A DNA stretch of 36,524 nt. Origin: a virus. The notes under the pieces were generated by a model, which did not search any database, was not told the origin of the DNA, and saw only the letters and a list, made by a program, of their open reading frames with translations. Positions within the stretch are counted from its first letter, which is position 1. Each line of letters starts with the position of its first letter. This document shows, piece after piece, positions 3,565 to 35,277 of this stretch. The stretch covers positions 1 to 36,524 of IMG/VR virus record IMGVR_UViG_3300013233_000068. One strand, given 5' to 3'. The position numbers and the translations under genes are program-made.

Positions 3565-3571
3565 GGATAAG

Positions 3572-3591
3572 GGGAGCGGGCAACCGCTCCC
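3572..3591 (+). terminator. GC-rich hairpin with GNRA tetraloop after the capsid gene
   Basis: A perfect eight-base-pair stem, GGGAGCGG paired with CCGCTCCC, encloses a GCAA (GNRA) tetraloop. It begins eight bases after the capsid stop codon. There is no U-tract after it, so it is not a standard intrinsic terminator. It may stabilise the 3' end of the abundant capsid message, mark a processing site, or act as a partial terminator. Confidence 0.5.
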
Positions 3592-3598
3592 ATTCCGG

Positions 3599-3631
3599 AT
3601 GCTAGCATATAGGATGCCTACACGCTAGCAT
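3599..3631. repeat. 33-bp near-palindrome, copy A (capsid downstream gap)
   Basis: Left arm ATGCTAGCATATAGG, three-base centre ATG, right arm CCTACACGCTAGCAT. The arms are complementary at 13 of 15 positions. A second copy at 25398-25430 has the same 15-3-15 geometry and is identical at 27 of 33 bases. Read rightward, it sits just upstream of the ribosome site of the next gene. It could be a binding site for a dimeric regulator, or an RNA hairpin. On the minus-strand RNA the two mismatches become G-U pairs. Confidence 0.6.
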
Positions 3632-3654: not shown

Positions 3655-3891
3655 ATGCGACATACTGCACAGATTTACGCCGAGCCGGAGTTGCTGCGGA
3701 AGCTGCGGGTGGGGGAGGAAGTAACGGTAGAGCTTACTGGCAAGGTGGTCGAGGTCGTTTCGGAAGAGGCAGAGACGGGTACGGAAGACGAGCTAAAGCT
3801 CCCGGCCCGCCACTACTTCGAGGTACGCGACCCGAAGGTCAAACTTCGGCAGGCTAATGAGTTTACAAAGATGGCGGACGAGGAAGCGTAA
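3655..3891 (+). CDS. Small acidic protein of unknown function
   Basis: 78 residues, highly charged, with a predicted beta-rich first half (KLRVGEEVTVELTGKVVEVV) that resembles a small beta-barrel, and an acidic helical tail. I do not recognise a family. GGAGG at 3643-3647 lies seven bases before the ATG. It is the first gene after the palindrome and capsid hairpin and abuts the tail fibre gene directly (stop TAA, then ATG). Position suggests a structural accessory such as a head decoration or tail-linked protein, but nothing in the sequence proves this. Confidence 0.7.
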   Translation: MRHTAQIYAEPELLRKLRVGEEVTVELTGKVVEVVSEEAETGTEDELKLPARHYFEVRDPKVKLRQANEFTKMADEEA

Positions 3892-25397: not shown

Positions 25398-25430
25398 ATG
25401 CTAGCATGTAGGATTTCTATATGCTATCAT
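25398..25430. repeat. 33-bp near-palindrome, copy B (end of DNA polymerase gene)
   Basis: Left arm ATGCTAGCATGTAGG, centre ATT, right arm TCTATATGCTATCAT, complementary at 12 of 15 positions. It matches copy A (3599-3631) at 27 of 33 bases. It covers the polymerase stop codon. On the minus strand it is followed almost at once by the GGAGG of the next gene, in the same place relative to a ribosome site as copy A on the plus strand. Confidence 0.6.
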
Positions 25431-27939: not shown

Positions 27940-29258
27940 TCCGTTGCCTCCATCCGTTCGTCGAAACGAGACTTGGCATAGCCCGCCGCTTCGCTGTCTT
28001 TCTCTATACCGATTGCTCGAAGGTGCAGGCTGTTCGCTGCCGGAAAGATAGGGCCGGTACCGGCGAAGGGGTCTAGAACTGTCTCGCCCGGCAGCACACT
28101 CCGCCGAAGCAGATTTTCGTACACCGCCACCGGCTTCTCTGCCCGCCGGATAGTTTTGATAGCCGGAACTTGTATCACATCCGGCAGGGCTTCAACACAA
28201 GGGCGAGCACCATAGCGGGTAAAGATAATGGCGTCGTAGGTTCGACGCGGCGCAGCCTTGGAGAATATGTGTCCCACGCCTTTCACCCATATCAAAGGGG
28301 TGCGCCAAGTAGACCAGCCGGCGGCATCGAAGATGTCGGCAAGGTCGTAGAACATGGCTATGTGGCAGAAGGCGTAAAGGTGTCCGCCCTCGGCCATCAG
28401 TCGTGGGCCTTGCTCTGCCAGCAGTTGATAGCACTTCAAAGCCTCTTCTCTAGAGTCGCTATATGTATGCTGGCGGGCCTGACCGAAGTCGAAGGTATCT
28501 GCTTCGACGCCGTAAGGTGGGTCGGTCACTATGCAGCTCACTTTCTCCTTCACTTCTGGAAGCAGCACGTGCGCATCGCCGACTAGCATCCGGTGACGGG
28601 GTTGCGCCGCCCCGGCGCCTGAGCCACTCTCCGCCCTCGCTTGCTCTGCCAGTTCCACCAGCTTCCCTTTAAGTTCTCGCTCCACTTTCTTCTTCGCCTT
28701 CCTCAAAGCGTCGGCTCGTGATGCCGCCTTACCCACTTCGGGGTCGTCCAAGAAGTCCGCAAGGAATATATTTTCCTGCACCTGTGTGGCGGCATAACCC
28801 TTCGCTTGTTCAACTGGCTTGCCAGTTAATTCTGCTGCGGTCTCCGCCATAGTCTGTGCGCCCTTCTGCTTTTTTCGTAACTCATGCAGCCGCTTTGTCG
28901 CCTCGGCTACTTCCTGCCACGTCAAATCGACTCGAATTATGTTTTCATCTAGCTCGGCTTCTTCCCGTCCAAGCTCGGAACAATCGGCTAGAAATAGTAC
29001 AGGGCAGCAACCCTTCTTGACCTTTGCGCCGTTGCAGGTGAAAGACTTGCCCGCCGCATGTAGCTGTTTGACTGCCCGAAGGCGGCGCTCCCCGCTTATT
29101 AGCGTATACTGTCCCTCCGGCTCTTCGGCTACTACAGGCGGATGCAACAAGCCGTTGCGGAGAATACTCTCCGCTAGCTCCGCCAGCTTGTCCTCTGCAA
29201 ACTGCCTCCGATGGCGAGTCTCCGCCACCTTTATCTGTGTCAGCTTTACTTCCTTCAC
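27936..29258 (-). CDS. ParB-domain / beta-class DNA methyltransferase fusion
   Basis: 440 residues from a GTG start preceded by AGGAG. Residues ~1-110 are a ParB/Srx-like N-terminal domain with GERRLRA at 56-62. A helical linker (~110-215) follows. The methyltransferase part has DPPYG at 246-250 and DPFAGTG at 396-402. The order, catalytic motif before the AdoMet-binding FxGxG, marks the beta class, which methylates adenine N6 or cytosine N4. ParB-methyltransferase fusions are common in phages and plasmids. It probably protects phage DNA from host restriction or regulates it. No restriction endonuclease gene is adjacent. Confidence 0.88.
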   Translation of the reverse strand: MKEVKLTQIKVAETRHRRQFAEDKLAELAESILRNGLLHPPVVAEEPEGQYTLISGERRLRAVKQLHAAGKSFTCNGAKVKKGCCPVLFLADCSELGREEAELDENIIRVDLTWQEVAEATKRLHELRKKQKGAQTMAETAAELTGKPVEQAKGYAATQVQENIFLADFLDDPEVGKAASRADALRKAKKKVERELKGKLVELAEQARAESGSGAGAAQPRHRMLVGDAHVLLPEVKEKVSCIVTDPPYGVEADTFDFGQARQHTYSDSREEALKCYQLLAEQGPRLMAEGGHLYAFCHIAMFYDLADIFDAAGWSTWRTPLIWVKGVGHIFSKAAPRRTYDAIIFTRYGARPCVEALPDVIQVPAIKTIRRAEKPVAVYENLLRRSVLPGETVLDPFAGTGPIFPAANSLHLRAIGIEKDSEAAGYAKSRFDERMEATE

Positions 29259-34265: not shown

Positions 34266-34742
34266 TTAGGCCAAGATGTCGTCGACCGTGACGGTCTCTT
34301 CCGTCTCCTGCTCGCGCAGACGCTCCTCTTTGACTGCAAGGATAGCCTTCTTCACGTCGCGCAGGCTACGAAGCTGCTTGACCTGCTCGTCGGACAGGCC
34401 GCCCACCAGTTCCTTCGCGGCGGACTCTTCGATGCCCTTCAAGCGTGCGACAGCAGCCACCAGCAGGGTCGTGCGGGCTGCGCCGGCACCCACCCGGCGA
34501 GTGACGTACTCGCCAGCAGCAAGGCGGTCGAAGACCTCCTTAGCGGCGGCCAGCTTTGCCTCTGGGTCGCTCTCTGCACTCGTCCTGTCACGCAGGATGT
34601 GGTGCAGGCCAGCGCCCTTCACCCGCTTCTGGATGTCCTTCGGCAGCTGGTTGAAGTCGAACTCAACCGGGTCGCCGCCTTCCGGAGTCCAGACTACGGT
34701 CGGCTGGTCGTAGTCGTACTTGATTGGAAGTCGCTTTGCCAT
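34266..34742 (-). CDS. Small virion- or DNA-associated protein of unknown function
   Basis: 158 residues. An N-terminal beta segment (VVWTPEGGDPVEFDFNQLPK) is followed by a mostly helical part with a region near residues 90-120 (TTLLVAAVARLKGIEES) and a Glu-rich C-terminus. Proteins with this 'FDFNQLP...I...' opening are widespread in phages without a known role. It is preceded by an 80-base leader with a hairpin and a good AGGAGG, so it is likely to be expressed strongly. Confidence 0.7.
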   Translation of the reverse strand: MAKRLPIKYDYDQPTVVWTPEGGDPVEFDFNQLPKDIQKRVKGAGLHHILRDRTSAESDPEAKLAAAKEVFDRLAAGEYVTRRVGAGAARTTLLVAAVARLKGIEESAAKELVGGLSDEQVKQLRSLRDVKKAILAVKEERLREQETEETVTVDDILA

Positions 34743-34858: not shown

Positions 34859-35069
34859 CAATCTTTGCTAGCTGATTCAGCCATGCTCGCCGCTTGTCCG
34901 GGGCTGGATAGAGCGCATCGGCGGCTAGATGGGCACATCGCTCTAGAGCTTCGTGGGCCTCCGGCGCGGCGCGAAAGGCGCGGGCAAAGGCCATAGCCAG
35001 CCGCCCGGCAATAAGCGGCGGGCAAGGCTCCACAGGGCTGCATGTCGTCTCGTTAAGCTCTTTCTGCAT
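34833..35069 (-). CDS. Small helical protein of unknown function
   Basis: 78 residues, Ala/Cys-rich and helical, with LAMAFARAFRAAPEAHEALE and CAHLAADALYPA. The start is inside the upstream gene by 17 bases, with GGAGGTAGAAG just before the ATG. The leftward promoter at 34830-34858 is embedded in its last codons. I do not recognise the family. Confidence 0.65.
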   Translation of the reverse strand: MQKELNETTCSPVEPCPPLIAGRLAMAFARAFRAAPEAHEALERCAHLAADALYPAPDKRRAWLNQLAKIVDKQDGIC

Positions 35070-35277
35070 CTTCTACCTCCTTGCGCTGCTTTGCGGAGAG
35101 TTGGGCCATTTCCGTCTCGACCCACTGGCGCAGCAGGGCTTCAAACAGTCGCTGGCGGGAGCCGTATTTAACCCGGCCGTAGGAGTCGGCCAGCAGTAGG
35201 TCGCAGCGTAGGACTAAATCCTCCGGCAAGCGGACGCAGATGGCTGTGCGCCTGACTGTACTCTTTGGTCTCGGCAT
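35053..35277 (-). CDS. Ribbon-helix-helix-like DNA-binding protein candidate
   Basis: 74 residues from ATG 35277, seven bases after GGAGG; a longer frame from 35457 has no supporting site. STVRRTAICVRLPEDLVLRC, then RQRLFEALLRQWV gives the strand and two helices expected of a ribbon-helix-helix (CopG/Arc-type) repressor, which binds DNA as a dimer. A basic N-terminus and a charged C-terminal helix fit. It would be a candidate ligand for the palindromic sites, although this is inference. Confidence 0.6.
   Translation of the reverse strand: MPRPKSTVRRTAICVRLPEDLVLRCDLLLADSYGRVKYGSRQRLFEALLRQWVETEMAQLSAKQRKEVEDAERA

Follow-up and report, generated by a model that had tools for sequence, protein, structure and literature searches.

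Dispersed palindromes in podovirus-like phages as candidate binding sites of a ParB-fold/HTH/methyltransferase fusion

We observed that a 36,524-nucleotide stretch of viral DNA (IMG/VR record IMGVR_UViG_3300013233_000068; hereafter the window) carries two copies of a long near-palindrome, and that about 30 related phages share this architecture: a dyad of 25-33 bp in 2-16 dispersed copies, with a sequence that differs from lineage to lineage. Computation showed that the sites form a family of dyads, where they lie, how they are dispersed and that they are linked to one phage protein. Judged from their sequence, the palindromes appear to be recognition sites in DNA for a dimer, and the best-supported candidate for the protein that binds them is the phage's own fusion of a ParB fold, a helix-turn-helix (HTH) and a DNA methyltransferase. 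Fusions of a ParB-CTPase fold with an N6_N4 methyltransferase are common in phages, and a survey of such proteins assigns them no function in its account of the fusions (PMC12704722). With the present results they would gain a simple model, a region that determines specificity and, across dozens of genomes, a candidate site to which they bind. If the model is true, it describes a new means by which a virus can selectively modify its own DNA, and the naturally paired ParB HTHs and sites of many phages become available for studies of specificity.

The window comes from a podovirus-like phage with capsid and tail genes running rightwards, replication genes running leftwards and a polymerase of PHROG 17. 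The record begins inside the portal gene and the terminase end of the genome is missing, so that a further copy of the site may be missing as well. Re-reading of the two sites (Table 1) confirmed the positions and the 15-3-15 geometry given in the initial annotation, with arms that match at 13/15 positions in site A and 12/15 in site B and an identity between the sites of 27/33 on the plus strand. In transcript orientation, with site B read on the minus strand, the identity is 28/33 and the match then runs on by TTTA. Any other 33-mer in the window differs at 13 positions or more, and the window therefore holds exactly two copies. Among order-2 Markov shuffles of the window there was no palindrome pair as similar as A and B, which upholds the earlier claim that the sharing goes beyond chance. 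As had also been noted, each site lies at a gene end and before the ribosome-binding site (RBS) of the next gene. Site A is placed between the capsid stop (3564) and a start at 3655; site B overlaps the DNA polymerase stop codon at 25427-25429, and AGAAGGAGG comes next on the minus strand. Searches with relaxed patterns of the 33-mer returned no exact copy in IMG/VR.

Table 1. Coordinates of the palindromes, the neighbouring stem-loop and the fusion protein in the window.
Feature	Position	Strand	Description
Site A	3599..3631	+	33-bp odd-centred near-palindrome, 15-3-15; score 47 (highest null score 11)
Site B	25398..25430	-	Second copy of the 33-bp near-palindrome; score 46
GC-rich stem-loop GGGGAGCGG-GCAA-CCGCTCCC	3571..3592	+	Intrinsic-terminator-like; directly 5' of site A and separate from the palindrome
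ParB-fold + HTH + N6_N4 DNA methyltransferase fusion, 440 aa	27936..29258	-	Proposed site-binding protein; cosegregates with the sites
ParB_N (NTP-binding fold), residues 1-108	28935..29258	-	SGERRLRA and ENIIRVDL boxes
HTH, residues 137-167	28758..28850	-	Predicted to read the palindrome, from the model and sister-group HTH covariation
Beta-type amino-methyltransferase domain, residues 222-430	27969..28595	-	DPPY at 246-249; DPFAGTG

No capsid relative in IMG/VR exceeds 62% identity to the window's capsid, so the letters of the site are not directly comparable between them. Each relative was scanned for its own repeated palindrome instead of the window 33-mer. This gave seven copies of TGGGACGGTGATTA...TAATCACCGTCCCA in G010 and six of the same kind in G017, a TTGTGGATATTATAT...ATATAATATCCACAA type common to G030, G035 and G031, and GGCGGGTAAT types in G004, G007, G029 and G021. 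Further palindrome types of their own were found in G013, G016, G018, G036, G042, G050, ctMlz233 and others. With very few exceptions, the sites of a genome score far over the highest value obtained from shuffles, which almost never reach such an architecture. The relatives share descent, and genome counts are to be read as non-independent observations.

When the relatives were checked at the window's own two places, position and geometry proved to be kept and the letters not. A site lies within 120 bp after the capsid stop in 13/23 genomes and after the polymerase stop in 8/19, where chance would give about 1.4% per genome in either case. Most sites sit 15-50 nt past a stop codon, shortly ahead of the next start or RBS, and some lie inside long reading frames. 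Spacing between sites is evener than random (combined p = 3e-8 over the twelve genomes with at least six sites, two of which are close relatives). Site orientation is mixed in G010 and others and follows no rule, and no association of sites with promoters was seen. A role in late/early switching, which the initial annotation had raised, is thus not favoured by the even genome-wide spread and the missing promoter association.

As candidates for the binder we considered a small ribbon-helix-helix (RHH) protein, a TerS-like HTH protein and the ParB_N/HTH/N6_N4 methyltransferase fusion. Presence/absence clustering over all proteins was uninformative by itself for finding the binder. The HTH region of the fusion seemed to have diversified in step with the sites, an observation that is suggestive only and that led to the prediction that sites follow the fusion. 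Distant relatives with the fusion do carry sites (nine copies of GCTATGTCCCAANTTGGGACATAGC in Desulfofustis phage LS06-2018-MD01 and three copies of its own site in ctLwi270), and no family of at least three sites was found in PaP2, Tiera, Aeromonas P5, CRP-810, ctfzr933 or Kuura, which have no fusion. In a second set of 23 contigs, picked by capsid or by fusion, families of 3-16 sites were present in 14 of the 17 fusion-bearing contigs; among contigs of this set with no fusion, G067, G071, G073 and G074 had no family of at least three sites and G068 was at chance level. G055 has ten sites and no fusion, and is a fragment missing the entire replication arm. Sites with no fusion on the contig also occur in G018, G021, G028, G031, G045 and G047, all fragments that likewise cover this arm incompletely. 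Conversely, at least 11 fusion-bearing genomes show no family of at least three sites, among them Mel-JY34, VS-ABTNL-3, G019, G034, G037, G038, G046, G048, G070, G072 and G076; a scan with shorter arms of the fusion-bearing genomes that have no families gave pairs at most, in some of them.

In support of the link to the fusion, the same scan picked up a ParABS replicon of known type (L225) with four dispersed GTGTTCAGACGTCTGAACAC sites. The annotation of this entry, ON073792.1 'Aphanizomenon phage Yong-DA', lists genes for ParA, ParB, a replication protein and exopolysaccharide and none for phage structural proteins, and the entry is probably a plasmid under a phage name; one of its four GTGTTCAGACGTCTGAACAC-like palindromes lies inside parB. 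Against it, the relative vir526 (L226) has one strong even-centred palindrome pair, AGGTGTAT...ATACATCTTAAAG, at 300 and 19096, and no ParB match. The TerS-like protein was rejected as the binder: its recognition helix is conserved while the sites vary, and weak TerS matches occur in PaP2 and Tiera, both of which are without sites.

The fusion matches ParB_N (PF02195) at 8e-14 and N6_N4_Mtase (PF01555) at 1.5e-16 in Pfam. Its PDB sequence matches are ParB, Spo0J and Noc at the N-terminus and DpnA, MboIIA and CcrM at the C-terminus. The HTH is present both in the alignment and in the AlphaFold model (mean pLDDT 88.6), where a long helix (181-211) lies between the HTH and the methyltransferase. 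Across 35 sequences the GERR(xRA), ENxxR, DPPY and DPFxGxG motifs show little or no variation. No ParA (PF13614) match over the cut-off was obtained in 23 genomes, with all 14 controls detected, and integrase (PF00589) was likewise absent from 23 genomes, with controls detected; classical partition and lysogeny are therefore unlikely. The proposed system is like ParB-parS (ParABS) in its ParB NTP-binding fold with GERRxRA and ENxxR boxes, its HTH and its palindromic sites. It differs in having no ParA, in carrying a methyltransferase at the C-terminus where ParB has its dimerisation domain, in a half-site of 13-15 bp compared to 8 bp in classical parS, and in sites that lie round the whole genome and not clustered near the origin or parAB. 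The fusions surveyed in PMC12704722 have the same PF02195 and PF01555 pair and are enriched in phages and prophages; the survey's account of them reports no DNA sites, whereas a candidate site family and the HTH are identified here.

The relation between site sequence and the individual parts of the fusion was clearest in a sister group of nine Desulfofustis-type phages. Here, half-site similarity correlates with the fusion HTH (r = 0.75, Mantel p = 0.0012) and with the recognition helix (r = 0.71, p = 0.0002), in comparison to r = 0.11 for ParB_N and r = 0.21 for the methyltransferase part. In nine other proteins of these genomes only isolated stretches of sequence reach 0.65. In the window's subgroup, site similarity gives r = 0.32 for the HTH, 0.31 for ParB_N and 0.38 for the methyltransferase, so that the HTH is no better predictor than its neighbours. 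Since the HTH signal does not separate in this subgroup, it is homology, cosegregation and the common site positions that support the assignment in the window. When the proteins of the window's group were put through a Mantel test one by one, the gene after the capsid came out on top (r = 0.67); it was set aside because the test in this group mainly tracks phylogeny.

These data suggest a model in which a dimer of the fusion would bind the dyad via its HTH, as cosegregation and the sister-group covariation indicate. By homology to ParB and KorB, as these are described in PMC12704722 and PMC11790492, the bound fusion may then close as an NTP-gated clamp and slide off the site. The sliding clamp might carry the methyltransferase along the phage genome, methylating it in cis and largely sparing host DNA, and several evenly spread sites, mostly in intergenic gaps, would cover the whole molecule. 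Every phage lineage would have changed both its site and its HTH. We consider it reasonably probable that the sites are parS-like places where the fusion is recognised and loaded, from which clamp closure, sliding and, as a hypothesis, methylation of phage DNA in cis may follow. More tentatively, and with somewhat less than even confidence, we propose that the fusion is a self-targeting methyltransferase whose clamp loads only at phage-specific sites, by which a lytic phage would mark its own DNA but leave that of its host unmarked; loading specificity would in that case diversify fast between phages. One ParB-methylase, that of Bacillus cereus, is reported to introduce nicks into DNA (cited in PMC5512222), so other activities of the fusion are possible.

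The main rival to this model is that the same fusion binds the sites as a transcription regulator, by KorB- or VirB-like silencing or as stoperator-like roadblocks. The usual placement of the sites, shortly past a stop with the next RBS close behind, would suit such a role, and there are precedents: KorB is a ParB-family clamp that slides and works from several dispersed sites per replicon (PMC11790492), 12 of them in RK2 according to a reference within that paper, and stoperators are dispersed repressor sites (PMC9283540). We nevertheless regard regulation as unlikely. There are sites within long genes (in ctMlz233, within that for the polymerase), site spacing is even with no orientation rule, the absence of integrase gives no indication of lysogeny, and the fused methyltransferase retains its catalytic motifs. 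KorB regulates promoters with KorA, whereas here an enzyme is fused and the sites have no promoter link. The stoperators of cluster A mycobacteriophages are also many, dispersed, phage-specific and located in short intergenic gaps; however, each of them is a 13-mer without symmetry that points along transcription and is bound by an immunity repressor acting as a monomer (PMC9283540), in contrast to the symmetric dyads of mixed orientation described here. Stoperators of the L5 type go with the integration module of a temperate phage, while PF00589 is absent from the 23 genomes here.

Organisation, segregation or packaging of the phage genome from dispersed, centromere-like sites, as in plasmid prophages, would fit with the ParB fold, the parS-like dyads and their even dispersal. 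This role is quite improbable, however, given that neither ParA nor integrase is present in the 23 genomes and that the methyltransferase occupies the place of the ParB dimerisation domain.

The initial annotation had also suggested an RNA processing hairpin. Read as RNA, the sites would be terminators or RNase III processing signals. Site A does fold well (-13.6 kcal/mol, z -3.4). The capsid-end region of relatives often carries a terminator, with stems homologous to the stem-loop next to site A found 3' of the capsid gene, and a few repeated families (G033, G039/G040, G049 and G075) have stems that may be terminator-like. An RNA stem should show compensatory change between its arms, and the arms within a site match no better than arms of different sites: 10.81/15 within compared to 10.77/15 between in the first genome group, and 9.40/12 compared to 9.63/12 in the second. 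Picking palindromes should inflate the within-site value, yet there is no excess. This equality indicates that the sites are DNA dyads for a dimer and not RNA stems. Conservation within the half-site is concentrated in two blocks, one about 3-7 and the other about 11-14 bp from the centre. In addition, unpaired positions in both window transcripts are A.C or A.G only and never G.U, there is no U-run, site B folds weakly (its 101-nt context is unexceptional at z -0.9), a separate terminator sits before site A, and intragenic sites exist. We therefore consider the RNA reading very improbable.

It is still less probable that the sites are operators of the small RHH protein at 35053-35277, which had been put forward as a possible binder. 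Among well-covered phages of the window's subgroup almost all encode RHH, and G007 and G049 have one site just upstream of the RHH gene. The family is missing, however, from nine Desulfofustis-type phages that carry 3-16 sites (no match in the Desulfofustis phage and G051-G066, which are many-site genomes), which rules it out as the binder, and its correlation with site sequence (r = 0.14) is the lowest of all proteins tested. Thus, the initial annotation was right about a real, non-chance, protein-type site shared by both arms, and mostly wrong in its preferred candidates. The RHH protein itself, encoded on the minus strand, has a conserved DPxxGxxxYGxRS loop and a highly variable beta-strand. 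Least probable of all is that the phages borrowed the sites of a host regulator: the site sequence does vary among phages that probably infect different hosts, but relaxed 33-mer patterns found no match in 84,980 bacterial and archaeal genomes (GTDB) and the sites track the HTH of a phage protein in the sister group.

Several further features were observed in the window and its relatives. In many relatives (G007, G011, G023, G034, G036, G037, G039, G043, G044, G047, G048 and G049) the match to the DNA polymerase is interrupted at one and the same point, near residue 549 of the window protein. The insertions range from about 150 bp to 1.8 kb and resemble inteins, introns or homing genes that share a conserved site; the polymerase of the window itself is intact. 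The minus-strand reading frame at 34266-34742 belongs to a family with a 'HGLxQKLGDSYAG'-like core that was seen in 29 related contigs, frequently twice in one genome. The G019 contig has a perfect repeat, AATTGCGCAAAGTGGGCAATTGCGCAAAGT, at both ends, and in G035, G041, G034, G038 and G049 the two contig ends carry palindromes that match, which is what terminal direct repeats would give.
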